32,767 bases of DNA. Source: FCB group bacterium (GTDB lineage Bacteria; Zixibacteria; MSB-5A5; GN15; JAAZOE01). Below the pieces are notes generated by a model. It saw only the letters and a list, made by a program, of their open reading frames with translations. It was not told the origin of the DNA and searched no databases. The DNA is taken from NCBI GenBank assembly GCA_024231695.1, contig JAAEQF010000383.1:1-32767 (forward strand). The letters run 5' to 3'. Of this stretch, positions 10,703-27,721 are shown piece after piece; positions within the stretch are counted from its first letter, which is position 1; each line of letters begins with the position of its first letter. The translations under genes were made by a program, and so were the position numbers.

Positions 10703-10709
10703 CTTCTGT

Positions 10710-11387
10710 GCGGGCGAAGCCCGCCAAAAACTGGCTCCGCCAGTGGGTTTGTTTCACCGCTGAGTAGGTCGAAAGTCCTGACTTTCGACATTTGGCTGTC
10801 GAAACCACAGGGGTTTCGACCTATGCAACTTAGTAGCCCACCCAGAGCCGAAGGCGCCGGGTGGGTTTATGTTTTATGCCTGAGACCTCGCCTTCATCAA
10901 TTTCCTTATCAAATCGCCCCTGATCCCGGGCCTGCCCTCTCTGATGTATCCTGAAACCGGGAGGCTATAATTATGCATAACCATAGGCTGAAAAATCGCA
11001 CCGCCATGAGCGATAATCGCATGCGAACCCAAAACGAACCCATTTTCTCTATAACTCACACGCCCCTTTTTAATTACAGCATTTTTTATCATCCGGGGGA
11101 CAGCCAAAATGTGGGGACCCCCTAAAAATGAGCAACCAAACCCAAATTTCCGATTAGTCTATGAGCGGTAACTGTTTAAATCCTTCAAAAAGAGGACAGG
11201 TGTATGACTCATCCATCAGTTCGGATCAATCCACACGACAGTCAAAAAGCGGCTCCGCCATCCCACAGCAAGCTGTAGGGCACCCGGTCTGATTCTGAAG
11301 GGCGAGATAGCGATGCGATCGAGAACAGAACAGGCTCCGCCTGTGTGGGGGCGATGCCCCCCGGCGGCCTGCCTCGTTAAGGCCGCC
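10710..11387. repeat. cluster of palindromic, REP-like elements in a gene-free region
   Basis: The whole 10555-11468 interval (about 0.9 kb) has no credible gene. It contains GCGGGC-GAA-GCCCGC (10710-10724), CTGGC-TCC-GCCAG (10731-10743), the paired hairpins at 10765-10823, CCCACCC/GGGTGGG (10837-10843, 10859-10865), CAGGC-TCC-GCCTG (11331-11343), GGGGGC-GAT-GCCCCC (about 11347-11361) and GGCGGCC/GGCCGCC (11363-11369, 11381-11387). GGCTCCGCC recurs three times. A large part of 10866-11225 shows no structure I can name. Such clusters usually consist of dispersed repeat copies. Confidence 0.6.
10765..10823. repeat. REPIN-like double hairpin
   Basis: Two adjacent hairpins are built from the same word. 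GTCGAAAGTC-CT-GACTTTCGAC occupies 10768-10789. GTCGAAACC-acagg-GGTTTCGAC occupies 10798-10820. The ends TAGGTCGAAA (10765-10774) and TTTCGACCTA (10814-10823) are exact 10-bp inverted copies of each other, so the whole unit is also symmetric. This is the architecture of a pair of inverted REP sequences. TAGGTCG appears again at about 11433. Confidence 0.6.
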
Positions 11388-11468
11388 GTGGACATCGAAC
11401 CCAGGGGTCTGCAACGACTGGGATTCAGGGGGGTAGGTCGTCACAAACTCCGGAGGATTTTTTATTGC

Positions 11469-12689
11469 TTATTCATAACGCAATGCATCGATCGGGTTTA
11501 AAGCCGCAGCTTTACGGGCCGGATAAAATCCAAAAAACACGCCGACTGCGCCGGAAAACACAAATGAAATCAGCACGATCTCCGGTTTTATCAGGGTGTA
11601 CATATCGGCGAATTCGGTCAAGCCATAGGCGATCCCGAATGATAAGACAATGCCGATGATGCCGCCGGTTAGGCTGAGCACTACCGCTTCGGCCAGAAAC
11701 TGGGTCAGGACGTCGCTGCTACGTGCTCCGACAGATAGACGGATACCGATCTCGCGTGTTCGTTCGGTGACCGAAACCAGCATGATGTTCATAATTCCGA
11801 TACCGCCGACGATCAGCGATACGCCGGCAATCGATCCCAGCAGGAGGGTCATCACTCGCGAGGTTTCGGTAACCGCTTCGGTTATCTCGGCCTGATTGGC
11901 GATAGTGAAATCATCCTCGTCGCCCTCGTCCAGTCGATGCGCTTCGCGCAGCAGGATGCGCATTTCTTCTTGAGCGGCGTCAATGTATTCGGTTGCAATG
12001 GCTTCGGCGTTAATCATATCGACAATGCGGCGGCCTTTGAGACGATAGAGGACGGTGGTCGAGGGAGCCAGAACGATGTCATCCTGATCTTGCCCCATGC
12101 CGCTCTGGCCTTTGCTTCTTAGGACACCGACGACGGTGAAGGGGATATTGCGGATGCGAATGCGTTCGCCGGTCGGGTCTTGATCGGGAAACAGTTCATC
12201 GGCCACGGTTTTGCCCAGTATGGCGACTTTCTTGTGGGAACTGATATCACGCTCGGTGAAAAAATCGCCGTATTCTACTTCCCAGTTGCGGATATCGAAA
12301 TAGTCGGTGGAGACGCCGTAGATCATGCAGTTCCAGTTGTTGCTGCCGCCGATAATCTGTCCGCCGGTACGCACGACCGGAGATACGCCGGAAAGAAGCG
12401 TGGCTTCTTTTTCCAGCTTTTCCACGTCGTCGAAAGTGAAACGGTTGAAACTTCCGGCGCCGCGATGAACGCCGCCGCTTCTACTGCCGCCGGGGAAAAC
12501 GACGATCAGGTTAGTGCCCAGCGAATCGATTTCCTGTTCGATCCGATCCTGCGTACCCTCGCCGATGGCGACCATGACGATCACGGCCGAGACACCGATG
12601 ATAATGCCCAGCGAGGTTAACAGGCTGCGCATCCGGTTTTTGAGAATGCTTTTGAAGGCCGCTTTCAGAAGGTTTCTAAGTTGCAGCAT
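11469..12689 (-). CDS. MacB-like ABC transporter permease (FtsX family)
   Basis: 406 residues with the MacB layout minus its own ATPase. There is an N-terminal transmembrane helix (about 20-45, SLLTSLGIIIGVSAVIVMVA), a large periplasmic MacB_PCD domain (about 50-270), and three C-terminal helices in an FtsX domain (about 280-400). The FtsX domain has the ERTREIGIRLSVGARSSDV coupling segment. The ATG lies 2 bases after the ATPase stop, with GAGGA upstream inside that gene. As a mechanotransmission permease it would act with the ATPase and adaptor encoded upstream to push a substrate through an outer-membrane channel. No TolC-like gene is in the window. The substrate is not predictable. Confidence 0.88.
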   Translation of the reverse strand: MLQLRNLLKAAFKSILKNRMRSLLTSLGIIIGVSAVIVMVAIGEGTQDRIEQEIDSLGTNLIVVFPGGSRSGGVHRGAGSFNRFTFDDVEKLEKEATLLSGVSPVVRTGGQIIGGSNNWNCMIYGVSTDYFDIRNWEVEYGDFFTERDISSHKKVAILGKTVADELFPDQDPTGERIRIRNIPFTVVGVLRSKGQSGMGQDQDDIVLAPSTTVLYRLKGRRIVDMINAEAIATEYIDAAQEEMRILLREAHRLDEGDEDDFTIANQAEITEAVTETSRVMTLLLGSIAGVSLIVGGIGIMNIMLVSVTERTREIGIRLSVGARSSDVLTQFLAEAVVLSLTGGIIGIVLSFGIAYGLTEFADMYTLIKPEIVLISFVFSGAVGVFFGFYPARKAAALNPIDALRYE

Positions 12690-12691
12690 GA

Positions 12692-13432
12692 TTATAAATC
12701 CTCATCCCGAAAGTCGGCCAGGTCGGTTTTGGCGTCGCGGCGACTTTCCACCTGGTAATCCTGGCGGATTTGACCGTCGCGCATTTTCACGATCCGTTTG
12801 CAGTATTGAGCTATTTCCGTTTCATGGGTGACCAGAATAATGGTGATACCCTGATCGTTCAGTTCCTGAAAAACCGAGAGGACGTCGATGGAGGTTTTGC
12901 TGTCGAGATTACCGGTTGGTTCATCGGCCAGGATAATGGCCGGTCGATTGACCAGCGCTCGGGCAATTGCTACCCGCTGTTGTTGTCCGCCGGAAAGCTG
13001 ATTCGGTTCATGATCCATACGGTCGCCCAGTCCAACGCGCTCCAGCGCCTCAATCGCCGCCTTCCGCGGATTTTTGATGCGAGTGTGACGATCATAAAAA
13101 AGAGGCAGTTCAACGTTTTCCAATGCCGTTGTACGAGCCAGCAGGTTGAAAACCTGAAAGACAAAACCGATTTTCTGATTACGGATATCAGCATATTGGT
13201 TTTTGGTCAGACTATCCGCCCGGTTGCCATCAAGGATATATTCACCCGAAGTCGGCTGATCGAGACAGCCCAGCAGATTCATCAACGTCGATTTGCCCGA
13301 TCCCGAAGAACCCATGACCGCCACGAACTCGCCCTGTTCCACGGTCAGATCGACGCCCCGAAGAGCCCGGACATCCACGTCTCCCATGCAGTAGGTTTTG
13401 GTGATATCGCGCGTTTCAATTACGGTATTCAT
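12692..13432 (-). CDS. MacB/LolD-type ABC transporter ATP-binding protein
   Basis: 246 residues from the chosen start. All nucleotide-binding motifs are present: Walker [10 protein letters not shown] (41-49), Q-loop QVFNLL, signature [15 protein letters not shown], Walker [12 protein letters not shown] and the switch histidine in TIILVTHE. The order and spacing match the LolD/MacB/FtsE subfamily that partners with four-helix permeases. I start at ATG 13432 ([14 protein letters not shown]) because AGGTG lies just upstream and the family N-terminus begins there; a frame start 15 codons earlier would overlap the adaptor gene. It powers the export system encoded by the surrounding genes. Confidence 0.9.
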
Positions 13433-13445
13433 TTTCACCTGCCCC

Positions 13446-14714
13446 CTAAAATCCCGGTCCCCGGCGCGGCGGTCCACCGCTCAAGGCGCTGTTGCCGCTT
13501 CCGGATGATTTGGATGTCGTGCCGGTCAGACCAATGCCTCCGATCACCTGCATACCTTCGGTCAGGTTCCGCGATCGGTCTATCACCGTATTGCTTCCGT
13601 CGGTCATGCCCTTCTTGAACATGCCCATGGCTAGATTACCATCATCATCCAGATACCACAGCTGGCCCATATCGCTTCGATTCATATTGCGACCGCCTCC
13701 CATACCCATCATTCCCTCCGGGGGGCGTCTGTTTTCTCGTAGTGAATCGGGCCGGTCAGCCCTTTCGGCCTGTCGTCTCTGCCGGAAATCCTCCAACTGT
13801 TCCTCGGAAGGTCGAAAACGCAAGGCGGAATTGGGAACCAGCAAAGCGGCACTGATATCTTCAATGATGAAATCCACCGTGGCCGTCATGCCAGGCAGCA
13901 GCAAATAATCATCATTGGCCGCATCCACAACTACGGTGTAGGTGACCACATTGGAGATGGTTGTCGGTTGAAGGCGCACCTGCGTGACCGTGCCTTCGAA
14001 TAGCTTATCCGAATAGGTTTGGACATCAAAACGTACTGCCTGCCCGGTTTTGATTAATCCGATATCGCTTTCATCCACTTCGGCCAGGATTTCCATCCGG
14101 GCCATATCTTCGGCGATGATAAATAGTGTCGGAGTGGATAGGCTGGCCGCGACCGTTTGACCGGTTTCGACTTCCCGCTTGATAACCGTGCCGCTGATCG
14201 GCGAGGTGATGACGGCATACCCTAGGTTTTGTTCCGCCCGTACCTGTGACGCCTTGGCCGATTTGAGTGTAGCTTTTTGAGTTTTGACAGCTATCTCATA
14301 CGGAAGAAACTCGGCTTCGGAAATCAATCCTTTTCCAAAAATCGGCTGGAAGCGTTCATAGTTGGCCTGAGCTTGTTCCAGTTGCGCTTCCGCCTTTTCC
14401 ACTCCGGCTTCGGCATCCAGCACCGAGGCCCGAAGGAGGATAGTATCCAGAACGGCCAGTACCTGCCCCTTTTGAACCTGATCGTTGTAATCGACAAATA
14501 CACTGTCGATGGTTCCGGAAACCTGTGTACCGATCTCAACAGTGGTAACCGGACTGAGTGTTCCACTGGCGGAGATAGTACTTTCCAGATCACCGCGTGC
14601 GAGCTCAACGAAATTGTATCCGCTCTCGGCCACCGCCGATGACCGGAGAAAGAAGTACCAGCCGCCGAAACCACAGACGGCCGCGATGACGATTATGACG
14701 AGGACTTTTTTCAT
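13446..14714 (-). CDS. MacA-like periplasmic adaptor (HlyD/RND membrane fusion family)
   Basis: 422 residues. An N-terminal membrane anchor (KVLVIIVIAAVCGFGGWYFF) is followed by a lipoyl-like half (VEIGTQVSGTIDSVFVD, about 62-90). Next come an alpha-helical hairpin (about 100-165, VEKAEAQLEQAQANYERF and TLKSAKASQVRAEQNL) and the second lipoyl half (ITSPISGTVIKREVETGQTV). A beta-barrel follows (EILAEVDESDIGLIKTGQAV), then a membrane-proximal part. An unusual insertion near 320-350 is rich in Arg, Met and Gly (PEGMMGMGGGRNMNRSDMG). The C-terminus is Gly/Ser-rich. It starts one base after the lipoprotein stop and lies 13 bases ahead of the ATPase start, so it belongs to one operon. It should bridge the permease to an outer-membrane channel. 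Confidence 0.88.
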   Translation of the reverse strand: MKKVLVIIVIAAVCGFGGWYFFLRSSAVAESGYNFVELARGDLESTISASGTLSPVTTVEIGTQVSGTIDSVFVDYNDQVQKGQVLAVLDTILLRASVLDAEAGVEKAEAQLEQAQANYERFQPIFGKGLISEAEFLPYEIAVKTQKATLKSAKASQVRAEQNLGYAVITSPISGTVIKREVETGQTVAASLSTPTLFIIAEDMARMEILAEVDESDIGLIKTGQAVRFDVQTYSDKLFEGTVTQVRLQPTTISNVVTYTVVVDAANDDYLLLPGMTATVDFIIEDISAALLVPNSALRFRPSEEQLEDFRQRRQAERADRPDSLRENRRPPEGMMGMGGGRNMNRSDMGQLWYLDDDGNLAMGMFKKGMTDGSNTVIDRSRNLTEGMQVIGGIGLTGTTSKSSGSGNSALSGGPPRRGPGF

Positions 14715-14715
14715 T

Positions 14716-15612
14716 TTAATTCACTTTTCCGTCTTTATTATTATCAGTGTTATCTTCAGCCGACAGGGGCAATATCGTTTTGACCCAGAATTCCTGTTTT
14801 TCCGGCATTTCCGGACGGTCCATACCGCCGCCTCGGCCGCCACCCATACCGCCGCCTTTACCTCCGCCCATACCGCCGCCGCCACCACGGCCACCGCCGC
14901 CCATAGAAGGACGCAATTCTTCCGTATTCATTTCTCCCCATTCGCCGCCAATGCAGATTTTCTGACCCGGTTTAACACCGAAGCCGTAAACATCATCGGC
15001 CATGCTCTGAAGGGGAATATTGAATTCGTAAGTAAAGAGTCCATTATCATTCCCGTGGGCAACGGCCGGTCCGCGGCGACCATCTTCGGGTAATGGCATC
15101 GGTTCATACCAGCGGCTTTCGTCGATCAAACATAATTGCACCGGATTGGCAACCATTCTTTCCTGCATCTTCTTTTCCATCTCTTCCATCATGCCGCCGC
15201 GCATATCACCACTCCTGCCGCCGCCTGCACCACGGCCGGCCATGAGTGAATCGATCGGCAGAGGTATGCCATTATATCGCAAACCGAAATTTTTATCCTT
15301 ATTACCATGATCGTCGAGCCAGATGGTCAGCCCGGTGGCCCGGATGGCCTGCAGCCAGGATCGGTCGCGGAAGCGCAGCAGGATGTACAGATTATCATTA
15401 TCACTGCGCAGTCCCAGCAGGACGCCATTCTTCTCAAAATATATATTTCCCCGATCCTCCCACTCCGACATCTGTCCATCGATTTTGATCGGCTCGGAGG
15501 GCCAGTGACATTGCACTTCCTGAGTTTTACAACCGACTGCCGAAAACACTATCAATGATAAGACAACTACTTTGGCGAATCTACGCGTCCTTCTGTGTTC
15601 CGATCGCATCAT
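14716..15612 (-). CDS. lipoprotein with CBM9-like domain and Gly/Met-rich tail
   Basis: 298 residues. A basic N-terminus and hydrophobic segment end in the lipobox AVGC (Cys28). Residues about 38-215 resemble the carbohydrate-binding-module-9-like beta-sandwich often found in FCB exported proteins. They show the typical opening EPIKIDGQMSEWED, the strand NLYILLRFRD, and a mid-domain TIWLDDHGNKDKNFGLRYNG. Two low-complexity segments rich in Gly, Met and Arg follow (around 125-150 and 240-268, repeats of GGGMGGG). It is the first gene of the MacAB-like operon, preceded by AAGGTAA. It may be a substrate-capture or accessory lipoprotein for the exporter; that role is inferred only from context. 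Confidence 0.75.
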   Translation of the reverse strand: MMRSEHRRTRRFAKVVVLSLIVFSAVGCKTQEVQCHWPSEPIKIDGQMSEWEDRGNIYFEKNGVLLGLRSDNDNLYILLRFRDRSWLQAIRATGLTIWLDDHGNKDKNFGLRYNGIPLPIDSLMAGRGAGGGRSGDMRGGMMEEMEKKMQERMVANPVQLCLIDESRWYEPMPLPEDGRRGPAVAHGNDNGLFTYEFNIPLQSMADDVYGFGVKPGQKICIGGEWGEMNTEELRPSMGGGGRGGGGGMGGGKGGGMGGGRGGGMDRPEMPEKQEFWVKTILPLSAEDNTDNNKDGKVN

Positions 15613-15835: not shown

Positions 15836-16972
15836 ATGAAAACACGGCAATTAGCCCTGATGGCGCTTTTGGCATTGGCCCTGTTTGTTATCGGCTGTTC
15901 GGGTGACGATAACGTCACCGACAACAACGGCGACATTACCACGGGCGAAAATCAAATCGGTCCGGCTGGTGGGACAGTGGAAATCACCGGGAAAATTTCA
16001 CTGAATATTCCGGCCGGCGCTTTAACCGATACGATCACCTTCACTATCAATCAAAACGGCTCGCCCACGGCTCCTCCGGGAACCAGAGGTCTCGTATCGC
16101 CGGCCTACACTATCGGTCCCGCAGGAACGTCGTTTTCCTCGGACGCCACATTGACAATCGTTTACAGCGAAGCGAGTCTTGGCGGCGCCGATGAAGGCAC
16201 CATTGTACTGTGCGGTGACAGCGGTTCGGGCTGGGAGGATCTTGTTTCGACAGTAAATACCGGCGGCAATACGGTCAGCGCCGACATTTCCCATCTGTCC
16301 GATTTTTCGGCCATGGTTGATACTTCATCTTATACCGAAGGCGTATTCGCCAGATTGATTGTTTCCCGGATGATTGTCTTCATGGGTTACGGCGATCCTC
16401 TCCGCACCGACGGCTACGAAGCGCTGATAGACAGCGCCTATGCCCCCTGCGATCCGATCAGCCCCTATCAAACACTGAATATTACCTGCGAGGGACAGAC
16501 TCTGGTCTGGAGCAGTAACCTCCATTTCTACATTTATCCGGAAATACCCGATCCGATGAGTCCGTTTATTACATTGGGGAACGTTTATGACTTTAACGTA
16601 GCGGCAGGCAGCGGCGTGTCGGCTCTTTCCGAGTCGATTGCTTTCCCAACCAGCGAACCGTACGTCACTTCGCCCACCTACATGTCCACGGTCAACAAAT
16701 CGGGTTTTACCACCAATTGGGCCGGTTCCGGTAGCGGGGTAGTGGAATTGATGATAATCAACATGGGTGGAGATTCAGCCATTTTTCTGGAAACAGCCAA
16801 TGACGGCAGTCATACGTTTTCTTCGAGCGACCTCTCTGGTTTGATAGCCGGCAATTATTCGTTGATCCTCAATCATTATAACCGGGAGACGTTTGTGGCG
16901 ACCGGCTACGATTCGCGCAGTTTTATCGCTGCCCGGGTAATGAGCACTACTCTGTTCACGCTGGCGGATTAA
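15836..16972 (+). CDS. lipoprotein with ZU5-like domain
   Basis: 378 residues. A lipoprotein signal peptide ends VIGC (Cys21), followed by an Asp/Asn-rich tether. Residues about 38-160 match the ZU5-like pattern: IGPAGGTVEI, ISLNIPAGALTDTITFTI, SPAYTIGPAGTSFSSDATL, then GSGWEDLVSTV and ISHLSDFSAM. This fold mediates adhesion or autoproteolysis in other proteins; no autocleavage site is evident here. The C-terminal 200 residues form a separate beta-rich domain I do not recognise. AAGGAG sits 6-7 bases before the ATG, and TATAAT at 15813-15818 is a plausible -10 box without a good -35. It is monocistronic and divergent from the MacAB-like operon. Confidence 0.78.
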   Translation: MKTRQLALMALLALALFVIGCSGDDNVTDNNGDITTGENQIGPAGGTVEITGKISLNIPAGALTDTITFTINQNGSPTAPPGTRGLVSPAYTIGPAGTSFSSDATLTIVYSEASLGGADEGTIVLCGDSGSGWEDLVSTVNTGGNTVSADISHLSDFSAMVDTSSYTEGVFARLIVSRMIVFMGYGDPLRTDGYEALIDSAYAPCDPISPYQTLNITCEGQTLVWSSNLHFYIYPEIPDPMSPFITLGNVYDFNVAAGSGVSALSESIAFPTSEPYVTSPTYMSTVNKSGFTTNWAGSGSGVVELMIINMGGDSAIFLETANDGSHTFSSSDLSGLIAGNYSLILNHYNRETFVATGYDSRSFIAARVMSTTLFTLAD

Positions 16973-17135: not shown

Positions 17136-17163
17136 TTGACAAAACAGGTCTTTATTGTATACT
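17136..17163 (+). promoter_or_regulatory. sigma-70-type promoter of the Cys-repeat protein gene
   Basis: Perfect TTGACA (17136-17141), 16-base spacer, TATACT (17158-17163). Transcription would start at about 17170, giving a leader of nearly 60 bases with a GAGGAG ribosome site. Confidence 0.75.
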
Positions 17164-17226
17164 AATAATGTCATCATTAAGTCAGGTATCAAAAAAGTCA
17201 TTACTCACCAATCGAGGAGATTGCCG

Positions 17227-18675
17227 ATGAACGAATTTAAATTTCTGCACAGGTTTTGTATCGCCAACTGCGTTTTAATTCTTGTTTTTCTGGCGTTCCT
17301 TGGTACAACGGCAAATGCGGTGGATATAACTGATGCCTATATCTGCGGCGATGCCAATAGCGACGGTTCCATCAATGTCGGCGACGCCGTTTATCTGATC
17401 AACTATGTTTTTAAAAGCGGGCCGGCGCCGGATGAAGACTGCTTTGCCGACTGCAACGATGCTTGCCCGGCCGGTTATGAATGTATTGCCGGTATCTGCG
17501 TTATTAATTGTATTCTGCCTGAAATCAATTGTGGCGGCGAATGTGTGAACACGACCGATGACGATGATAATTGCGGCGGTTGCGGTAACGCTTGTCCGCC
17601 CGGTTATGAGTGTGTCGGCGGCTCCTGTCAGCTGGCTTGCCCGCCCGGACAAACGGATTGCGGCGGTCAATGCGTGGATACGCAGAACGACGAAGACAAT
17701 TGTGGCGGCTGCGGTAATGCTTGCCCTCCCGGATATATATGCAATGGATCGGCTTGTCAATTGGAATGTCCCTCAGGCACAACCAAGTGCGGAGCTGAAT
17801 GCGTTGATACCAATGACGATGAGGATAATTGCGGCATGTGCGGCAATATTTGTCCTCCCGGATACGTTTGCAACGCCGGCTCCTGTGAGTTGGAATGTCC
17901 AACGGGGATGACCAAATGCGGTTCCGAATGTGTGGACACCAATGATGATGAAGACAACTGCGGTGGTTGCGGCAACGTCTGTCCCACCGGCTATATCTGC
18001 AACGGTTCGGTCTGCCAACTGGAATGTCCAACGGGGACGACCAAATGTGGTTCCGAATGTGTGGACACCAATGATGATGAGGATAATTGCGGCATGTGCG
18101 GCAATACCTGCCCGCCGGGATACGTTTGCAACGCCGGCTCCTGTGTCCTTTCCTGTCCGTCGGGATTGACCAATTGCGGAGGTCAGTGCAAAGACACTCA
18201 GACCGACGAGGACAATTGCGGTGCCTGCGGAAATGCCTGTCCTACCGGCTATATCTGCAACGGTTCGGCCTGCGAGTTGGTTTGCCCCTCGGGGACGATC
18301 AAATGCGGTTCCGAATGTGTGGATACTAATGATGATGAAGATAATTGCGGCGGTTGCGGCCTAGCCTGCCCGCCCGGATACGTTTGCAACAGCGGCTCCT
18401 GTGTCCTGTCCTGTCCCTCGGGCTTGACCAAATGCGGTCCCGATTGTGTGGATACCATTGATGATGAGGATAACTGCGGTGGTTGCGGTCTCACCTGTCC
18501 GCCGGGATATACCTGCAGTGGCGGATCCTGTCAGTTGATCTGTCCCTCAGGGCAAACCAAATGCGGTACCGAATGCATCGATTTACAAAACAATGAGGAA
18601 AACTGCGGTAGTTGCGGCAACATCTGCGGCCCCGGTTACAAATGCGTCAACGGAAGCTGTGTTGTCTGCCCTTGA
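17227..18675 (+). CDS. secreted protein with dockerin-like loop and nine Cys-rich repeats
   Basis: 482 residues. A signal peptide ends near TTANA-V, then one dockerin-like calcium loop (CGDANSDGSINVGDAVYLIN, about 40-60) and a short Cys-rich linker. The rest is nine tandem repeats of exactly 43 residues with eight cysteines each, spaced C-x6-C-x3-C-x9-C-x2-C-x3-C-x5-C-x4-C. Similar CGGxCVDxxxDxxNCGGCGNxC repeats occur in secreted proteins of myxobacteria and other environmental bacteria; their role is not established, but adhesion or a rigid stalk is likely. I use ATG 17227 because GAGGAG precedes it and the promoter at 17136-17163 lies downstream of where a longer frame would begin. It ends at a strong terminator. 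Confidence 0.85.
   Translation: MNEFKFLHRFCIANCVLILVFLAFLGTTANAVDITDAYICGDANSDGSINVGDAVYLINYVFKSGPAPDEDCFADCNDACPAGYECIAGICVINCILPEINCGGECVNTTDDDDNCGGCGNACPPGYECVGGSCQLACPPGQTDCGGQCVDTQNDEDNCGGCGNACPPGYICNGSACQLECPSGTTKCGAECVDTNDDEDNCGMCGNICPPGYVCNAGSCELECPTGMTKCGSECVDTNDDEDNCGGCGNVCPTGYICNGSVCQLECPTGTTKCGSECVDTNDDEDNCGMCGNTCPPGYVCNAGSCVLSCPSGLTNCGGQCKDTQTDEDNCGACGNACPTGYICNGSACELVCPSGTIKCGSECVDTNDDEDNCGGCGLACPPGYVCNSGSCVLSCPSGLTKCGPDCVDTIDDEDNCGGCGLTCPPGYTCSGGSCQLICPSGQTKCGTECIDLQNNEENCGSCGNICGPGYKCVNGSCVVCP
17509..18669 (+). repeat. nine tandem 129-bp coding repeats
   Basis: Nine in-frame units of 129 bp without length variation. The first and last are most diverged and the inner ones most alike; units four and five share long identical stretches. 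Units 2, 4 and 6 end YICNGSxC while 3, 5 and 7 end YVCNxGSC, which shows growth by a two-unit (258-bp) step. Confidence 0.9.
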
Positions 18676-19511: not shown

Positions 19512-20825
19512 ATGGTTGCCAGACGGAAAGCGGCGTTGGCCGCGGTTATTTTTACCACTTTAGTACTTGGGGCCGTCAATGTCGGCTGGTGGTGGTATTA
19601 CAGCACCATTACCGTTTATCTCGAAAAGCAATTATCGCATCGCCTGACCGCCACGGCCGCCGCGGCCGCTTTGCATATCACCCCGGAAACGGTTGACGGG
19701 CTTTTGATCGACAATCTGGACCGCTACGCCGAAACTCATCTATATCTCGATTCGTTGACCGTACTCGATTCGCTTTCGGAAACCTCGATAATCGATCTCG
19801 ATTTTGCCTATCTCGTCTCTTCGCGCGAGGATACTTCGCTGGAAGGATATCTTCTGTCCCGGCCCAATTTTGATGATCTGCAAAAGGCGGCGTCCGGCAC
19901 CGCTTCGGCCTCGGCCCTCTATGATATCGACGGGACCTATTTGAAGTCGGCCTATGCCCCGCTTTACGGCGGCGACGGAGTTATCGAAGCGATCATGGTC
20001 GTTGAAGCCGGGGCTGGGTATTTCGAGCTTTTGGATACTATGCGGCGTAACCTTTATCTTCTGGCCGGGGGATCGGCGGCGACGGTCATCTTCCTTCTGT
20101 TTTTTTATATCGTATATAATCGTCGTATGGCCTCAGCCGAGGAACAGATATTCAGAAACGGATCACAGGCGGCACTGGGCCGCATGGTGGCCGTGGTCAG
20201 TCATGAAATCAAAAACCCGATGATGATCATCCGGGCCGCCGGGGAACGGATTGAAAAAAAATACGAGGACCCGGAGTCATCGTTTATAATCGAGGAGATT
20301 TCCCGGCTGGACAAAATTGTTTCCGGTTACTTGTCCTTTGCCAGAGGTGACAGCCTGGTCAACCCGGAAAAGGTCGATCTCGGCCAGCTGGCCCGGAAGA
20401 TTACAACCGATTTTTCGCCGCAGTTTACCCGTGAGGAAATTGCACTTCACATCGAAATCGAAGATTCGGCTCCGGTAATTATGGCCGATCCGGTCGGCAT
20501 GCGGCAAGTGATCATAAATTTATTGCTTAATGCCTTGCAGGCCGCCGGTGAAGGTGAAACAGAAAAAGGCAAGGTGGTCATGGAGATCGGATCTTTGGCC
20601 GGAAGTTCCGGAATGTTTATTCGAGTGGCTAACAGCGGTAGAACGATCAAGCCATCGCAACGGGAAAAACTGTTCGAACCTTTTTTTACAACCAAAGTAC
20701 AGGGTTCGGGACTGGGACTTTATCTTTGCCGGAGAATCGTTGAAGCCCACGGCGGGACCATTCGTATAACAGATAACTTGGAAAAGATGACAGTCTTTGA
20801 AGTAACTTTGCCAAATGGAGATTGA
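19512..20825 (+). CDS. membrane sensor histidine kinase
   Basis: 437 residues. Two transmembrane helices (about 9-30 and 178-202) flank a periplasmic sensor region of about 145 residues without a recognised fold; no HAMP domain is evident. The dimerisation helix carries the phospho-accepting His231 in VVSHEIKNPM. The ATPase domain has the N-box QVIINLLLNALQAAG and the G2 loop GSGLGLYLCRRIVEAHGG. The G1 box is unusual: it reads ANSGRTI instead of the normal DxGxGI, so the adenine-contacting Asp is replaced by Asn. It is followed 2 bases after its stop by its cognate activator gene. It probably senses an envelope signal and phosphorylates that activator. No Shine-Dalgarno is visible. Confidence 0.92.
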   Translation: MVARRKAALAAVIFTTLVLGAVNVGWWWYYSTITVYLEKQLSHRLTATAAAAALHITPETVDGLLIDNLDRYAETHLYLDSLTVLDSLSETSIIDLDFAYLVSSREDTSLEGYLLSRPNFDDLQKAASGTASASALYDIDGTYLKSAYAPLYGGDGVIEAIMVVEAGAGYFELLDTMRRNLYLLAGGSAATVIFLLFFYIVYNRRMASAEEQIFRNGSQAALGRMVAVVSHEIKNPMMIIRAAGERIEKKYEDPESSFIIEEISRLDKIVSGYLSFARGDSLVNPEKVDLGQLARKITTDFSPQFTREEIALHIEIEDSAPVIMADPVGMRQVIINLLLNALQAAGEGETEKGKVVMEIGSLAGSSGMFIRVANSGRTIKPSQREKLFEPFFTTKVQGSGLGLYLCRRIVEAHGGTIRITDNLEKMTVFEVTLPNGD

Positions 20826-20827
20826 AC

Positions 20828-22156
20828 ATGAGCGCCATCCTGATTATCGACGACGAGCCCAAAATGACCATGATCATATCATCGAATCTCAACGATGCCG
20901 GATACACCACCGACACCGCCTCCAGCGGCAAAGAAGCGATGGAAAAACTGAACCGCCAGGACTTTGACCTGGTAGTGACCGATTTACGGCTGCCGGCTCC
21001 GGACGGCATGGCCATTCTGGATTGGATCATGAGCAATCGGCCAGAGACAATAGTTATTATGATGACCGCCTTCGCCGAAGTAAAAACGGCGGTCGAAGCG
21101 ATGAAAAAAGGCGCCGCCGATTATCTGATCAAGCCATTTCCGCTGGAGGAGTTAACCCTTCAGATCGGCCGACTCCTATCGTATCGGCATACCCGGCAGA
21201 TGAAGGATCTGCGGGAAAAGGATTATGAAGATCTGGCTTATGATGATTTTATCGGTGAAGCCGCCGCTACCCTGGCGTTTTTTAATCTGATCGACAAGGT
21301 TGCGCCGACCGAATCATCGGTTTTGATTACCGGTGAATCGGGTAGCGGCAAGGAACTGGCCGCCCGCCGGATACATAATCTTTCCGAACGCCGGAATCAG
21401 CCATTTATCGCCATCAATTGCGCGGCTTTGACCGAAACACTTCTGGAGTCGGAACTTTTCGGCCATGAAAAAGGAGCTTTCACCGGCGCTATCAACCGCA
21501 AATCGGGCCGTTTCGAACTGGCCTCGGGCGGCACTATTTTTCTTGACGAAATCGGTGAAATGTCGCCCTCGTTGCAAGCCAAGTTGCTTCGTGTTCTTGA
21601 GGAGCGGACACTGGTCCGCGTCGGCGGAGTCGATGAGATAAGAATCGATATCAGGTTGGTCACGGCGACCAACAGGAATTTGAAATCGATGATCAAGGAG
21701 GGTAACTTTCGCGAAGACCTGTTTTTCCGTCTCAACGTTTTCCCGATCGTGTTGCCGCCTTTGCGGGACAGAACCGCTGATATTCCACTGTTGACTCATT
21801 ATTTTCTGGTCAAGAGTGGTTTTGCCTTTCCGCAGCTGGACGATGAGGTTCTGAGCTTGTTGAAAAAATACAGCTGGCCGGGAAATATCAGAGAGTTGAA
21901 AAATATCCTTGACCGGGCCATCATTCTCTCCGGCGATGAACCGATAAACGCCGGTTGTATCAGTATTGACGATGATGATCTGGAAAGTTGTGGAGCTCAG
22001 ACAAAGACCGGAAAATCGCTGGGAGAAAGTGAAAAGGATCTAATCCTCGACTCTCTAAAACAGGCCAAAGGGAGTAAAACCGAGGCGGCCCGCATGTTGG
22101 GGATAACGCGGCGAAGATTGTATTCGCGAATGAAAATCCATGGCATTTCGCCCTAA
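20828..22156 (+). CDS. NtrC-family sigma-54-dependent response regulator
   Basis: 442 residues with the full three-domain plan. The receiver has acidic pocket Asp8/Asp9 and phospho-acceptor Asp52 (VVTDLRLP). The AAA+ domain has Walker A GESGSGKE, the sigma-54 contact loop GAFTGA, Walker B GGTIFLDEIGE and the sensor region NVFPIVLPPLRDRTADIP. The C-terminal Fis-type helix-turn-helix is KTEAARMLGITRRRLYSRMK. I start at ATG 20828, with GGAG 7 bases upstream inside the end of the kinase gene. When phosphorylated it should open sigma-54 promoters; a candidate lies directly downstream at 22279-22294, ahead of the envelope genes 22329 and 23379. Confidence 0.94.
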   Translation: MSAILIIDDEPKMTMIISSNLNDAGYTTDTASSGKEAMEKLNRQDFDLVVTDLRLPAPDGMAILDWIMSNRPETIVIMMTAFAEVKTAVEAMKKGAADYLIKPFPLEELTLQIGRLLSYRHTRQMKDLREKDYEDLAYDDFIGEAAATLAFFNLIDKVAPTESSVLITGESGSGKELAARRIHNLSERRNQPFIAINCAALTETLLESELFGHEKGAFTGAINRKSGRFELASGGTIFLDEIGEMSPSLQAKLLRVLEERTLVRVGGVDEIRIDIRLVTATNRNLKSMIKEGNFREDLFFRLNVFPIVLPPLRDRTADIPLLTHYFLVKSGFAFPQLDDEVLSLLKKYSWPGNIRELKNILDRAIILSGDEPINAGCISIDDDDLESCGAQTKTGKSLGESEKDLILDSLKQAKGSKTEAARMLGITRRRLYSRMKIHGISP

Positions 22157-22251
22157 TATTGTCCTCCAAGGTACATATGACCGACAAGGTACACGGGTTA
22201 TTTAAGGGCAAGCGACAGTACCAATTGTAACATATTACGGAACAAAGAGAT

Positions 22252-22272
22252 AGGCGGAGTGCTCAACCGCCT
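22252..22272. promoter_or_regulatory. inverted repeat, possible activator site
   Basis: AGGCGG (22252-22257) and CCGCCT (22267-22272) form an inverted repeat just upstream of the sigma-54-like promoter. It could be a binding site for the Fis-type domain of the adjacent regulator, although such sites usually sit farther from the promoter. Confidence 0.35.
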
Positions 22273-22278
22273 CCGTAT

Positions 22279-22294
22279 CGGCACGGGAATTGAG
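22279..22294 (+). promoter_or_regulatory. sigma-54-like (-24/-12) promoter
   Basis: CGGCACGGGAATTGAG follows the TGGCACG-N4-TTGCW plan. The -24 GG and the full GGCACG are exact and the TTG is in register, but the -12 GC reads GA. It lies 34 bases before the gene at 22329 and directly after an NtrC-type activator gene. Confidence 0.5.
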
Positions 22295-22328
22295 ACAGTC
22301 TTAGCAGGTAATTAGAAAGGTTGCAAGT

Positions 22329-23375
22329 ATGAAGAGACGGATAAGGCTGTTTATAGTAGTGTGGCTGTTGGTTCTAACCGGAACCGCCGGGGCTCAATAT
22401 GACCCTGGCGAAACAATGGAGGCGGCGGCCAGGGATCTGGATAGAACCGATCTGGTGATTGAACGGGCCAAGGAGGTTGTCGTCGAAAGTGGCTCGGAGC
22501 GGGCCAAAAACCTGCTTGAGGCTGCTATTCGTTTACAGAGGCAGGCCCGGAGCGAAATGCGTTCATTTGATTTCGATAATTACGGACAAATTGCCGGGCA
22601 GCGGTTGGGTAAATATACTATGAGCGCCCGGAAAAAGGCCCAGCGGGCGATTGCCGTCACCCGTCAGGCGGATGAAAACGAGAACCATGTCCGTCGTCGG
22701 CTGGAAATGACCGACGAGTTGATTCGGCGGATTGAGGAAAATACCGACTCCGCCACTCCGGAAAATATACTTCTGGTTCTGGAAACGGCCATTAACAAAC
22801 AACAGCGCGCCCGGGAACTATTCCGAAATCGGCGGCTTAAAATGGCCTTGCAACTGACCATGCAGACCCGGAAATCACTGGAAAGAATGGCCGAGCAGAT
22901 CAGCGGTCATTTAAAAACCAATAGGCATCAGAACAGTTTGCAAGAGCGTTATTATACTCTATTGGACAGAATAGAGGTGAGCGAGGTGGCTCATCGGGCG
23001 GAGGTCAAAAACCGCTTACAGCGGGCCGAGGAATTTCGCCTACAGGCTGAGAAATACGCCGCCGAAAATCGTTATAGTCGGGCCGAAAAGGCGATGCAGG
23101 AAGCGGTTAATCTCTTGTCCCGCATTACAGAGAGGTTTAAGACGCCCGAGCGTATTAAAAATTCGCTGGAAAGTATGACAAGGCGGATGGAGGAGATCAG
23201 ATCAAGGGTTGGCAGTTCTCGAAATCAGCAATCGGCAAGATGGTATGGATCGGCTTCCGAGCATCTGGAAAAGGCGTCGGCCTTTTACCTGGCAGGGAAA
23301 TTCGAAGAAGCCGCCGTCCAATTGCAGGCCGCCCGCCAGATGTTGTCCCGGGCCAAAAAGTCATTGGAGGACTAA
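22329..23375 (+). CDS. exported alpha-helical coiled-coil protein
   Basis: 348 residues. A signal peptide (KRRIRLFIVVWLLVLTGTAGA, cut before QYDPG) is followed by almost uninterrupted charged helix. Arg, Glu, Ala, Gln and Leu dominate, with heptad-like spacing (AKNLLEAAIRLQRQARSEMR, RRLEMTDELIRRIEEN, AEEFRLQAEKYAAENRYSRA). Repeated Leu/Ala blocks such as EKAMQEAVNLL and EEAAVQLQAARQML resemble degenerate TPR-like hairpins. It probably acts as a periplasmic scaffold. AGAAAGG precedes the ATG. It is the first gene after the sigma-54-like promoter and runs directly into the beta-barrel gene, so the two may form one envelope complex. No family is recognised. Confidence 0.75.
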   Translation: MKRRIRLFIVVWLLVLTGTAGAQYDPGETMEAAARDLDRTDLVIERAKEVVVESGSERAKNLLEAAIRLQRQARSEMRSFDFDNYGQIAGQRLGKYTMSARKKAQRAIAVTRQADENENHVRRRLEMTDELIRRIEENTDSATPENILLVLETAINKQQRARELFRNRRLKMALQLTMQTRKSLERMAEQISGHLKTNRHQNSLQERYYTLLDRIEVSEVAHRAEVKNRLQRAEEFRLQAEKYAAENRYSRAEKAMQEAVNLLSRITERFKTPERIKNSLESMTRRMEEIRSRVGSSRNQQSARWYGSASEHLEKASAFYLAGKFEEAAVQLQAARQMLSRAKKSLED

Positions 23376-23378
23376 AGG

Positions 23379-24698
23379 ATACAAGACTCCTTATCAGTAG
23401 CAATATACAGCTTAATCGTATTATTATCCTTGGCGGCAGTCTGCCCGGCAGTATCCGCCAATGATCCTTCGGGAAAGAACGATTTCTCGGTATCGGCGGG
23501 GATGGAATATCAGCTTTTATCGCAGGAATATTACGATGCCGTGATTGACACCTCCCAGTCCGATCTGATTGAAAGCTGGTATTTGACAAAAGACGAGATA
23601 AACGACCTTATATATCGCACGATTGTTGATTATCGTCATAAAAATCAGAAAACTGATTTCAGCCTGTTAGGGAATATGGAATACTCCACGGATCGCCTGT
23701 TGGGCCGAGTGGAGAGTTTTTTCTCTCTGGGCGATTATAACCGAAGTCTCAAATTATTCGGCAAATATGAAAATAAATCCGTAAGCGAAAATGGTGATCA
23801 GAGTTATGACGATGCCTATGATTACTTTCAGACCTATTTGAAGGCCCGGCGGAGGATTTCATCCCGTATGCGCCTGCAATTCAAGGCCGGTTACGAAACG
23901 GTGAACTTTGACAGTAAGCAACCTGATGACACCTCGTCTTTCATCAATTACGATTATTCTATAGTTTCTTCGCGGTTAAGTGGTGACTTGTCCTTGAATG
24001 AATTTTCTAAACAGCTTTTCTGGGCAATTTCATATCATCACAGACAGGTTCCCGATTCTCAGGAAGCGGCCTATGACGATTTCAGATTCCTTCTCGATTA
24101 CAGCAATTTTGATCTCAACGGTCAGCTGGGACTTGAGGTGGAGTTGGAACACAAAAATTATTCCCGGGCAGACAGCCGATACGATTTCACAGCACTGTTT
24201 TTTCGGGGTCGATTCGGCCGGTCGATCGGCCACAATATAGAGTGGGACATGAATTTTGACCTGGACAATTATCAATATTCGACGCCCGATATTATCAACC
24301 GCAATTATAATTTAATAAAAATCAAAATCCAGGCCCTTCGTCAGCCGGCCGACTGGGGTATCGGCCCTTTTGCCCGACTGGAGTTTCGATCTGAAGAAGA
24401 GCTTGATATTGAGGCGGAAGAATACAGTCAATGGGAATTGGGGTTGACCGGAAATATTCTGAATATCACGACTTTATTTTTCGATTCAGAATTGTCGGTC
24501 GGCAAGAGAAATTACAACGACGGCAATAGTATCCTGACTTCTTATTCCTTCGTTTCAATATCGACCATGGTCAATATTCGTCTATTAAGGTTTTTATCAT
24601 TGAATCTGGCTTTTGACGGGGACTTTGAAAGTCATGATCAATGGGAAACCGATAGTGATCTTTATTTATTATCGGCCGGTCTAAACGCCCGATTTTAG
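23379..24698 (+). CDS. outer-membrane beta-barrel protein with probable ATA start
   Basis: About 439 residues if it starts at ATA 23379. The mature part alternates hydrophobic and polar residues in amphipathic strands with many Tyr, Asp and Ser turns (e.g. TDFSLLGNMEYSTDRL, RMRLQFKAGYETVNFD, GQLGLEVELEHKNY). It ends in a C-terminal Phe (SAGLNARF), as outer-membrane barrels do. The first conventional start, TTG at 23430, would fall inside a signal peptide. The frame just upstream encodes the missing half (SLSVAIYSLIVLLSLAAVCP, cut after VSA). Only ATA at 23379, 8 bases after a perfect GGAGG, fits. It lies in the same frame as the preceding gene, separated by one TAA. A mutated or misread ATG is an alternative. 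Confidence 0.75.
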   Translation: MQDSLSVAIYSLIVLLSLAAVCPAVSANDPSGKNDFSVSAGMEYQLLSQEYYDAVIDTSQSDLIESWYLTKDEINDLIYRTIVDYRHKNQKTDFSLLGNMEYSTDRLLGRVESFFSLGDYNRSLKLFGKYENKSVSENGDQSYDDAYDYFQTYLKARRRISSRMRLQFKAGYETVNFDSKQPDDTSSFINYDYSIVSSRLSGDLSLNEFSKQLFWAISYHHRQVPDSQEAAYDDFRFLLDYSNFDLNGQLGLEVELEHKNYSRADSRYDFTALFFRGRFGRSIGHNIEWDMNFDLDNYQYSTPDIINRNYNLIKIKIQALRQPADWGIGPFARLEFRSEEELDIEAEEYSQWELGLTGNILNITTLFFDSELSVGKRNYNDGNSILTSYSFVSISTMVNIRLLRFLSLNLAFDGDFESHDQWETDSDLYLLSAGLNARF

Positions 24699-24731
24699 GG
24701 CAATTGTGCAATTATTGATCTCAAAAAGCGC

Positions 24732-24759
24732 TTGACAAATACCCAAAATATGTTAGGTT
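24732..24759 (+). promoter_or_regulatory. promoter of the large surface-protein gene
   Basis: Perfect TTGACA (24732-24737), 16-base spacer, TAGGTT (24754-24759). Transcription would start near 24766, leaving a leader of about 320 bases. Confidence 0.6.
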
Positions 24760-24765
24760 GTGTGT

Positions 24766-25084
24766 GTCTAGGGATAAGTTGTGTTTTTTCGCACCTTTAA
24801 GAGTTTCAAACGCACCTTTAGTAGCTATCTTAGTTCCTGCTTGATTTACCGCAGGTACCTATTTGCTCTTACAAAAGCCCTTTTTACTAAGTACTAAACT
24901 GAAATGTTTATTACTGGAGAAACCAAAACAGGCTTTTCTTCTATGAAATCATTAATTGAAATGACAAAACAGGAAAAAGGCTTGAACCTACTTAAACCAA
25001 AAACAAAGGTTTTAAGTAAAAAGGTGATTTCATTATGGTGTTTCTATCAACACCGTATTGAACTAAATTTAAAGGAGCAATGTA
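24766..25084 (+). promoter_or_regulatory. long structured AT-rich leader of the surface-protein gene
   Basis: It contains two exact direct repeats CGCACCTTTA (24790-24799 and 24811-24820) exactly 21 bases apart. There is a bulged stem CTTAAACC/GGTTTTAAG (24991-25016) and a hairpin GGTGTT-tctatc-AACACC (25037-25054) before the AGGAG site. A reading frame of 63 codons from 24904 has no ribosome site and overlaps the gene start, so I do not call it a gene. Confidence 0.4.
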
Positions 25085-27721
25085 ATGAAGCATAACAAGC
25101 TACTTACATTAACATTGCTGGCCGCGTTTCTAATCCTGGTTTCTGCTTCCTTCTCTTATGCGCAGAATTCACTCACTTTTGGGACTGTTGAAGTCTGTCC
25201 TAGCCCTGCCGGTTCGACGGTTGATGTACCCGTTTATATCAACAACAGTGTCGAATTGGCGGCAATTGACATCGTTGGTGAGGTTGTAACGATCGCGGAT
25301 GTCAGTTTGACTGTCTTGAGTGTTGCTTACGACACCCGGATGTCGGATGTCACGGTAATTGATTACCGTTTTGGCATCTCTGATCTTGGTGGCGGTGTGT
25401 TCCGTTTCGGAGCCACAAAGCTTAACCACGACGTCAATCTGGCTGTTGCTGATGGTCAAGTTGCAACTCTGACTCTTGAGTTTACCTCTGACTGTGAACT
25501 CGGTTCTGCCGCGATCGATCCGGCAAGTGGTGTTAGTGGAGCAAACACTGTCTCTACTACATTCGCTGACAATGCCGCTACTTTGATCGTTCCGGATCCG
25601 ATTACCAGTGGGTTAATCAGCGTTGTCAATGATACCCCCGAATTTGTTGCGTGTCCAGACGACCAGTCGATTTACTGGAATGGCGGAAGCTATTCATTCA
25701 ATTTCGACGCCACTGATGCAGATCTTGCATGTGGCTGTGACGTGCATACGTATCGTCTCCTGAACAGCAGTATCGGCTCTATTTCTGTTGATCAGGGCGT
25801 TTATCAGTATGCCGGCCAGCCTGGCGACATCGGTTGCAACACTGTGACCGTTGAAGTCGAAGATCTTTATGGTGGCACTGACACTTGCATCTTCGAGCTA
25901 GAGGTTCTCAACGTGGCTCCGGTAGTAGTCTGTCCGGATGACGTCGTTGAAATTCTCTGGGGTTATGAAGCCACGGCTACGGCTACGGCAACCGACGCGG
26001 ACTTTGGTCCGTCTGGTTTGACCTACTCGCTGGGCCTCGGCACCACCTGTCCGGGAAGCGGCGCACATGAACCGCAGATCGGCGTAACTGATGGTGTCTT
26101 CACCTGGTTGACCGAAGAAACCAATGCCTATCTTGGCACTTTCTTTGCCGAAGTGATCGTCACTGACGGCGCTCCTCTCGATCTTTGCAACACGGAAAAC
26201 GCTGACACGTGTTATATCGAAATACTCGTGAAGCCTAAATTCCGCGTTACTATCGAGAAAGCCGAAGGTCCCGATGGCTATGGTGTTCTTCAGGGTCATT
26301 ACTACAGCCTACCTATCTTCCTGGATGACTCCTATGTCTCCATGGAAATGGGCGGTTTTGACTTCTTAATCGCTTATGACGCTTCCGCTCTGACCTTCAT
26401 CGAGGCCACTCCGGGAGCTCTGCTCACCCAATGTGGATGGGAATACTTTGTTTATCGGTTCGGTCCTGACGGTAACTGCGGCAACGCTTGCCCCTCCGGC
26501 TTGCTTCGCGTGGTAGCCATGGCTGAAACCAACAATGGTAACATCCACCCCACCTGTTTCGACAGTGGTTCGGGTACCGAGCTGGCGCTTTTGAAGTTCT
26601 TCGTTACCAACGATCGTACGTTCGAATGTCATTATGCCCCGGTCGAATTCTACTGGATGGACTGCGGCGACAATACCATATCGTCCAAATATGGTGACAC
26701 GCTCTTCCTCGAAGACGGCGTGTGGACGTTTGAAGGCAATCCTATGGGCGACCCGCCCGTTGGTTACGACCTGCTCCCGGGTTACTGGGGTGTAGGTGAT
26801 GACTGCCTCGTAGGCGACAAGCACTTCCCGCTGCGCGCCATTGACTTCAAAAACGGCGGCATTGATATTATTTGTGCCGACGATATTGATGGTCGTGGCG
26901 ACATTAACGCCAACGGTCTGATGAACGAAATCGCTGATGCGGTTATGTTCACTAACTACTTCATCAACGGTCTGGCTGCCTTTGCCGATCATGTCGAAGC
27001 TTCTATTGCCGCTTCCGATGTGAACGCCGACGGTACCACGTTGTCCGTGGCTGACTTGGTATATTTGATCCGTGTCATCCAGGGCGACGCCCAGCCTTAT
27101 CCGAAACTCACCCCGAACGCCGAATCCATCACCGTTCTTACCCAGCTTATGGGCAACGCGATGACGGTTAAGTATAACGGCGTGGAAGCCGGTGCGGCCC
27201 TGTTTGTCTTCTCCCTTGAAGGCACTGTTGGTCAGCCGACTCTCCTGGCGGGCGCTGATGGCATGGAAATCGCTTATAGTGCCACCGATAGTGAAGTTCG
27301 CGTCCTGATTTATAATATCGGACCGAATGCCATTAACACCGGTGACATCCTGAGCATTCCTGTCGAAGGCACTCTTGAGTTGACCGAAACTGAAATAGCC
27401 GACTTTAACGGTAGCGCGCTGAACGTTTCCACGCGCATCCTGCCGACGAGGTTCGAGCTGGCTCAGAACTATCCTAACCCGTTTAACCCGACCACGACGA
27501 TGATGCTAGCCATGCCGGTAGCTGGTAATTATAATCTTGCCATCTACAACATTGCTGGTCAGCTCATCCAGAGCTTCAGCGGTCATGCTGAAGCCAGTGT
27601 AGTCGAAGTTACCTGGGATGGTACGGACTCTTATGGTAGCAAAGTTGCTTCCGGTGTTTACTTCTATAAGTTCACCGCGAATAACTTCTCTGAAACCAAA
27701 AAGATGATCCTGATGAAGTAA
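25085..27721 (+). CDS. large surface protein: cohesin-like, Ig-like, dockerin-like and Por-type sorting domains
   Basis: 878 residues. Signal peptide 1-26 (cut at SYA-Q). Residues 28-172 look like a cohesin-type sandwich (GSTVDVPVYINN..., FRFGATKL..., VATLTLEF). Two Ig/cadherin-like domains follow (PDDQSIYWNGGSYSFNFDAT; PDDVVEILWGYEATATATAT), then a second cohesin-like region (about 390-565, HYYSLPIFLDDS..., FDFLIAYDASALTFIEATPG). A dockerin-like pair is at about 605-675 (DINANGLMNEIADAV, DVNADGTTLSVADLV). The last 95 residues are a Por secretion-type sorting domain (FELAQNYPNPFNPTTTM ... GVYFYKFTANN, KKMILMK), implying export through a type IX-like system. AAAGGAG precedes the ATG and a strong terminator ends the unit. 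Its long leader and more even codon use than its neighbours suggest high expression. It may be a major surface or scaffolding protein. Confidence 0.88.
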   Translation: MKHNKLLTLTLLAAFLILVSASFSYAQNSLTFGTVEVCPSPAGSTVDVPVYINNSVELAAIDIVGEVVTIADVSLTVLSVAYDTRMSDVTVIDYRFGISDLGGGVFRFGATKLNHDVNLAVADGQVATLTLEFTSDCELGSAAIDPASGVSGANTVSTTFADNAATLIVPDPITSGLISVVNDTPEFVACPDDQSIYWNGGSYSFNFDATDADLACGCDVHTYRLLNSSIGSISVDQGVYQYAGQPGDIGCNTVTVEVEDLYGGTDTCIFELEVLNVAPVVVCPDDVVEILWGYEATATATATDADFGPSGLTYSLGLGTTCPGSGAHEPQIGVTDGVFTWLTEETNAYLGTFFAEVIVTDGAPLDLCNTENADTCYIEILVKPKFRVTIEKAEGPDGYGVLQGHYYSLPIFLDDSYVSMEMGGFDFLIAYDASALTFIEATPGALLTQCGWEYFVYRFGPDGNCGNACPSGLLRVVAMAETNNGNIHPTCFDSGSGTELALLKFFVTNDRTFECHYAPVEFYWMDCGDNTISSKYGDTLFLEDGVWTFEGNPMGDPPVGYDLLPGYWGVGDDCLVGDKHFPLRAIDFKNGGIDIICADDIDGRGDINANGLMNEIADAVMFTNYFINGLAAFADHVEASIAASDVNADGTTLSVADLVYLIRVIQGDAQPYPKLTPNAESITVLTQLMGNAMTVKYNGVEAGAALFVFSLEGTVGQPTLLAGADGMEIAYSATDSEVRVLIYNIGPNAINTGDILSIPVEGTLELTETEIADFNGSALNVSTRILPTRFELAQNYPNPFNPTTTMMLAMPVAGNYNLAIYNIAGQLIQSFSGHAEASVVEVTWDGTDSYGSKVASGVYFYKFTANNFSETKKMILMK

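Follow-up and report, generated by a model that had tools for sequence, protein, structure and literature searches.

We examined an 878-residue surface protein with cohesin-like modules (P0001) and two dockerin-bearing proteins, an M14 carboxypeptidase (P0002) and a Cys-repeat protein (P0003), encoded in 32,767 nucleotides of a Zixibacteria genome (contig JAAEQF010000383.1, positions 1 to 32,767 of the forward strand; the window hereafter). An earlier note on this DNA had proposed that the three proteins assemble into a complex of their own on the cell surface. To our reading, they have about an even chance of belonging instead to a genome-wide, order-wide and peptidase-rich cohesin-dockerin system for non-cellulosomal surface display, with P0001 as a possible receptor or stalk. 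Cohesin proteins carrying a C-terminal sorting tail of the type IX secretion system (T9SS) would be fixed to the outer membrane and, in a calcium-dependent manner and without a cellulosome, would hold on the cell surface some hundred proteins, including peptidases, that end in one near-uniform dockerin. The likeliest receptor would be a single-cohesin protein of ~300 residues (G000:C408) that is conserved across the order; P0001 would act as another receptor or else as a structural stalk, with an EF-hand-like pair that belongs to the build of the protein and stands outside the dockerin code. We infer export, attachment, binding, calcium dependence and function of the display. A non-cellulosomal surface system, as the earlier note had it, is nonetheless supported by the predicted cohesin fold, the T9SS tail together with PorU and SprA, and 113 mostly C-terminal, peptidase-rich dockerin open reading frames (ORFs); the complex of locus proteins did not hold up.

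The source genome, a draft of 5.14 Mb spread over 1001 contigs and with an estimated contamination of 7.9%, has at least 122 Dockerin_1 matches at E <= 1e-3 (150 of 216 candidates scored), and the modules are thus not a matter of one locus. We examined 77 stretches around dockerin and cohesin matches with a dockerin hidden Markov model (HMM) built from the same genome and recovered the 113 dockerin ORFs. The dockerin is C-terminal in 101 of them, that is, within 60 residues of the stop (the largest tail has 31 residues, most have fewer than 8); the remainder have it near the N-terminus (4), inside a protein with a T9SS tail (5) or at an internal position in a tail-less protein (2), and one is cut off. 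A T9SS tail was found in none of the 101 C-terminally tagged ORFs, a separation that is partly forced because both modules claim the C-terminus. The placement recurs in relatives: among 40 loci from 15 relatives (20 from G008 and 20 from 14 other genomes, the best-scoring among the matches listed), 37 have a C-terminal dockerin no more than 17 residues from the stop, two do not and one frame is cut by the end of its stretch. The catalytic families of the tagged set are mostly peptidases (S8 and M14, four each; M28, C25 and C10, three each; M23, two; M1, C1 and M6, one each), alongside beta-propeller, Ig-like and FG-GAP domains. No glycoside hydrolase was among the Pfam families listed for the 101 tagged ORFs (25 of 41 and 25 of 40), and we see no sign of a cellulosome in these families. 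Signal peptides were discarded as a hallmark of the tagged set, as a crude count (84 of 89 tagged and 109 of 135 other ORFs) did not discriminate. One ORF of 579 residues (L113, G000:C582, 4582-6318) consists largely of about six tandem dockerins.

Cohesin matches in the source genome number 10 at E <= 1e-3 and 17 at E <= 1. The two best belong to small proteins (C408 and C827) in which we recognized, by inspection, a signal peptide, a cohesin and a T9SS tail. Queried with the C408 cohesin, all 26 genomes compared gave some match, and 24 encode a relative of the protein (best match covering 150 or more of 184 residues, at E <= 3.3e-10, in an open frame 203-440 residues long), the weaker matches being confined to G004 and G023. 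The T9SS tail is present at 19 of 20 C408-type loci examined and the remaining locus runs off its stretch. The machinery for such tails is also present, since PorU and SprA score above the curated cut-offs in the source genome, and each does so in 24 of the 26 genomes. Judged by sequence, the C408-type protein is built like a minimal cohesin anchor of the cell surface and is the likeliest candidate for the dockerin receptor.

The tagged set reads almost as one in its dockerin loops. Of 179 loops of the source genome, 141 have VG and 19 have IG immediately before the last loop Asp; position 10 of the loop is V in 140 and I in 19 of 164, and positions 11, 17 and 18 are near-uniform (157, 160 and 153 of 164). 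We take positions 10, 11, 17 and 18 to be cohesin contacts in cellulosomal dockerins, and the two residues before the last loop Asp are presumably those that set species specificity in clostridial dockerins. Eight genomes of family f3 gave 63 loops, 39 of which come from one genome; the dipeptide is IL in 52, and most sampled f3 dockerins (L194-L213 of G008 and others) read NILD where the source genome reads NVGD. Sampling elsewhere is thin, with 10 loops from other genomes of family f1, two from f2 and four from f4. We propose, tentatively, that in this bacterial order the C-terminal dockerin serves generally to retain proteins at the surface, as a tag in parallel with the T9SS tail, that a single conserved receptor, with one cohesin and a T9SS anchor, puts as many as a hundred tagged proteins or more on display, and that the two-residue code shifted jointly between families, from VG to IL.

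P0001 was read from its ORF, from domain profiles and from predicted folds. A signal peptide, identified by inspection, is followed by cohesin-like domain 1, two Ig/cadherin-like domains, cohesin-fold domain 2, an EF-hand-like (dockerin-like) pair, a third sandwich and the T9SS tail, as follows:

25085-27721, + strand: P0001, the 878-residue surface protein (ORF call, domain profiles, predicted fold)
25166-25624, + strand: cohesin-like domain 1, residues ~28-180 (Pfam Cohesin)
25625-26233, + strand: two Ig/cadherin-like domains, residues ~181-383 (model, cadherin-pair matches)
26234-26878, + strand: cohesin-fold domain 2, residues 384-598 (fold search)
26894-27070, + strand: embedded divergent EF-hand-like (dockerin-like) pair, residues 604-662 (Dockerin_1 below cut-off, conservation)
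27122-27439, + strand: third beta sandwich, residues ~680-785 (strands in the AlphaFold model)
27470-27709, + strand: T9SS C-terminal sorting domain, residues 796-875 (Por_Secre_tail, TIGR04183, PorU structure match)

The ORF call confirmed the length given earlier, and the Por-type tail is well supported by Por_Secre_tail (32.1 bits, cut-off 27; Pfam), by the T9SS type A sorting domain TIGR04183 (44.6, cut-off 23; NCBIfam) and by a match of PorU entry 6za2 to residues 788-878 (Z 11.3 in the full-length fold search). A phmmer search of the whole protein against the PDB gave five matches at E <= 1, two of them to the tail (6za2 and 3c12) and three weak ones to UL31 chains. With PorU and SprA in the genome, P0001 has the features of predicted T9SS type A cargo, which suggests a surface protein exported by this system.

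We built two AlphaFold models, of full-length P0001 and of its C-terminal cassette (residues ~365-878), each from 12 sequences from the window or related loci; mean pLDDT was modest (63.8 and 67.5). The two cohesin-like sandwiches of the earlier note fared unequally. Domain 2 is modelled mostly at pLDDT 65-82 and 66-90 in ten-residue blocks of the first and second model, with dips to 41-59, and its predicted fold has the jelly-roll of solved cohesins over the whole domain. In the full-length fold search, 42 of 50 rows were cohesin or scaffoldin entries (best Z 16.2, rmsd 2.1, 140 of 141 residues), the other eight being PorU, Vpr and six cadherins; all 50 rows of the cassette search were cohesin or scaffoldin entries (Z 10.8-15.6). 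Domain 1 is a borderline Pfam Cohesin match (24.9 bits, cut-off 24.1, residues 37-150) and is poorly modelled (pLDDT blocks of 24-66 over residues 31-180), and orthologue L091 has a cohesin over the Pfam cut-off at the corresponding position (residues 50-158). The Ig/cadherin-like region is modelled mostly at pLDDT 75-90, falling to 54-60 at residues 321-340; cadherin pairs match it with Z 10.4-10.9 at a high rmsd of 7.8-10.3, and several orthologues have Big_9, He_PIG or Cadherin_4 matches (Pfam). What had been taken for the protein's own dockerin pair stands as a divergent EF-hand-like pair and not as a dockerin: Dockerin_1 scores 13.8 bits (E 0.07, residues 605-662) under a cut-off of 22.9, the loops have 13 residues by inspection where C-terminal dockerins have 12, as type I dockerins do, and neither the INVGDAVYLIN core nor a match to the HMM of the genome's own dockerins was found in P0001. 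No dockerin appears in the rows of either fold search, a result that is uninformative because the pair is too poorly modelled.

P0001 is matched at E <= 1e-3 in all 40 genomes (its own and 39 relatives), and families f1 to f4 all contain long orthologues. The cassette, comprising the cohesin fold, the embedded EF-hand-like pair, the third sandwich and the T9SS tail, is repeated in several paralogues per genome (mostly 40-55% identity among the matches listed) and joined, across this bacterial order, to many different N-terminal regions in proteins of up to ~4,000 residues. One paralogue lies ~5 kb upstream of the SprA gene (G000:C865:3-5342 and 10526-15265). A cohesin match at E <= 1 was obtained in nine of 10 scanned orthologues, at or over the cut-off in three. 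The pair falls under the Pfam dockerin cut-off in P0001 and 10 orthologues and is reported only in P0001 and one orthologue; among the rows seen, from f1 through f4, it retains the same sequence character, and the C-terminal dockerins differ between f1 and f3.

P0001 may also be read as a structural stalk or adhesin that works with the neighbouring outer-membrane barrel and two-component system; the EF-hand-like pair would then pack in cis against the cohesin fold, and neither would bind a dockerin in trans. We regard this role as possible, though short of probable; it can hold alongside the display model elsewhere in the genome, and the odds of the two overlap. In the cassette alignment, whose 12 sequences were picked for their likeness to P0001, the pair comes after the cohesin fold in 11 and the twelfth ends early; the cadherin-like pair in the middle of the protein also suits a stalk. 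Cis contact is unsupported by the two models, in which the pair is poorly folded. Against a stalk stands a further protein (L129, G000:C890, 2073-5519) with four cassette-type cohesins but a single EF-hand-like pair, which follows the fourth cohesin; a receptor array would be expected to look like this. Its cassette ends in an INVGD dockerin in place of the T9SS tail of the others, and it looks like an adaptor scaffoldin by its predicted modules; C752 is likewise dockerin-terminated, on a weaker cassette match.

The genes around P0001 speak to both the stalk and the local complex. Those that concern us are:

2884-4917, + strand: P0002, M14 carboxypeptidase with weak TSP_3 matches and a C-terminal INVGD dockerin (4717-4878)
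17227-18675, + strand: P0003, Cys-repeat (STIG1-like/MXAN_6577-like) protein with an N-terminal dockerin half (17347-17457)
19512-20825, + strand: histidine kinase, conserved neighbour of P0001
20822-22156, + strand: sigma-54 (NtrC-type) response regulator, conserved neighbour of P0001
22329-23375, + strand: helical protein with a signal-peptide-like start (by inspection), conserved neighbour upstream of P0001
23430-24698, + strand: putative outer-membrane beta-barrel, inferred from sequence character (Pfam OMP_b-brl at only E 0.53)

The order kinase, regulator, helical protein, barrel and P0001 orthologue (19512-27721 in the window) was found in nine of 11 informative neighbourhoods from three families (four f1, one f3 and four f4, the helical protein being unmatched in one), as a stalk working with these partners would have it. 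It is absent from two f2 neighbourhoods, and a twelfth stretch is too short. Dockerin ORFs occur in two of the 12 neighbourhoods, which span 0.7 to 20 kb, three of them reaching genes placed like that at 17227 or farther, and we saw no sign in these 12 of the genes at 2884 and 17227 as lasting partners. The modules themselves go beyond chance. As for their co-occurrence, 0.72 dockerin ORFs are expected by chance per 32,767 bases, and two or more have a probability of 0.16. Because the gene order is conserved and the co-occurrence of two dockerins is within chance, the lasting partners of P0001 are the kinase, the regulator, the helical protein and the barrel. A sigma-54 promoter before P0001, to which the NtrC-type neighbour pointed, was considered and rejected: the window has 23 pattern matches against 26.4 expected from shuffles, and none with two or fewer mismatches lies in 24699-25084.

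The dockerins of P0002 and P0003 are nonetheless real in different degrees. That of P0002 is a full C-terminal pair, with both calcium-loop-helix segments of a type I dockerin present by inspection; it scores 20.0 bits in the Pfam scan of the window, under the cut-off of 22.9, and 24.5 bits in the genome search, over it, and resembles solved dockerins (best 2y3n_B, E 6e-4). P0003, which starts at the ATG at 17227 within ORF 17155-18675, has the first dockerin half but no second segment (profile positions 2-39 of 57; 19.9 bits in the window scan, 23.2 in the genome search). The INVGDAVYLIN core reported for the two proteins was found in both. Beyond the half dockerin, the ORF at 17155-18675 carries a series of Cys-rich repeats that resemble one another, matched by Pfam as nine Stig1 stretches and by NCBIfam as four MXAN_6577-like ones, and a ZU5-domain protein with a T9SS tail match below threshold is encoded at 15836-16972.

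A complex scaffolded by P0001, with the dockerins of P0002 and P0003 bound at the surface by its two cohesins, is to us improbable. The predicted cohesin fold and T9SS tail of P0001 would suit it, as would two dockerin-matched proteins in the same window, or three if the sub-threshold pair of P0001 is counted as a third dockerin ORF (P = 0.037 for three or more). These two dockerins are, however, just two of at least 122, one of them is a half, and the P0001 cohesins rank 13th and 17th of the 17 in the genome. The local complex is thus unsupported, because dockerins are genome-wide, stand near P0001 orthologues in only two of 12 neighbourhoods and have a better receptor candidate elsewhere.

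Several observations weigh against genome-wide display as well. P0001 has no conserved dockerin neighbour, and its EF-hand-like pair is not confidently folded (pLDDT blocks of 30-49 and 34-55 in the two models). The code is loose within f1, where 10 loops of other genomes read IG (4), VA (3), LG, VG and IT (one each). Between six f1 and seven f3 aligned single-cohesin proteins, five columns are fixed, counting one gap; none is an evident counterpart of the change from VG to IL, and we set covariation aside. The number of dockerins ranges from 3 to 150 across the 26 genomes (some counts are lower bounds, with 150 candidates scored) although nearly all keep the single-cohesin protein, and dockerin and cohesin numbers correlate modestly (Spearman 0.46, p = 0.018). 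Fourfold-degenerate sites of the dockerin loops are too alike (0.458 against 0.296 predicted from codon use); the dockerins are not synonymously saturated, as old ones would be, and, because synonymous sites exceed the codon-use expectation, the uniformity of the loops may partly reflect recent duplication or gene conversion. The surplus of synonymous identity and the roughly tenfold excess of dockerin over cohesin matches in the 26 genomes would agree with C-terminal dockerins that are recently duplicated, calcium-binding terminal caps or a secretion signal, with no cohesin receptor. We think this unlikely: cohesin matches exceed the cut-off in 26 of 26 genomes, DNA identity surpasses 90% in only 10 of the 13,299 pairs of loops, and the near-uniform loop positions are those that we take to be cohesin contacts.

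The cohesin fold and the C-terminal dockerins of this proposed display system are shared with the clostridial cellulosome, which also has single-cohesin cell-surface anchors and whose dockerins in C. thermocellum and C. cellulolyticum differ by lineage-specific residues at two loop positions. Clostridial anchors rely on SLH domains or sortase; here, the cell is a diderm and the candidate anchor has a T9SS tail instead, and no cellulase family is among those listed for the tagged set. The modules of the window thus resemble a known protein-docking system in non-cellulose use and not a special local complex. This kind of system is already known, having been inferred in Candidatus Stygibacter, Planctomycetes and ANME archaea (PMC8542988, PMC6461901, PMC9012536). 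For Candidatus Stygibacter (Cloacimonadota), a cellulosome-like system with proposed non-cellulose substrates was inferred from genomes only, as here; secreted enzymes, S8 and C25 peptidases among them, have dockerins at the C-terminus, and a cohesin protein bears a conserved C-terminal domain for surface attachment (PMC8542988). It differs in having one 3,755-residue scaffoldin of tandem cohesins and carbohydrate-binding modules with GH18/GH57 enzymes (PMC8542988), as against the roughly one hundred dockerin ORFs, small single-cohesin candidates, shared cassette and absence of glycoside hydrolases among the families listed here. The planctosome of freshwater Planctomycetes is a proposed cohesin-dockerin complex for polypeptide degradation that includes an M14 carboxypeptidase; its tether is a lamin tail domain protein and not a T9SS tail, and its architecture features P-domain, TSP and HYR modules (PMC6461901). 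The non-cellulosomal expansion in ANME archaea includes proteins that, like C890, combine a single dockerin with several cohesins, but in an archaeal S-layer context with ABC-transporter binding proteins in place of T9SS and peptidases (PMC9012536). In the literature searched, we found no report of a cohesin-dockerin system in Zixibacteria/Zixiibacteriota or of Latescibacteria with cohesin and dockerin.

If the general-tag proposal is correct, cohesin-dockerin pairing would serve, in an uncultured phylum, the bulk dressing of the cell surface with peptidases and beta-propeller proteins, through one short tag and one small receptor and hence more simply than in a cellulosome. The families would then offer a natural experiment in the joint change of specificity of a whole repertoire of binding modules, and the window would be a warning against inferring a local complex from neighbouring dockerin genes.

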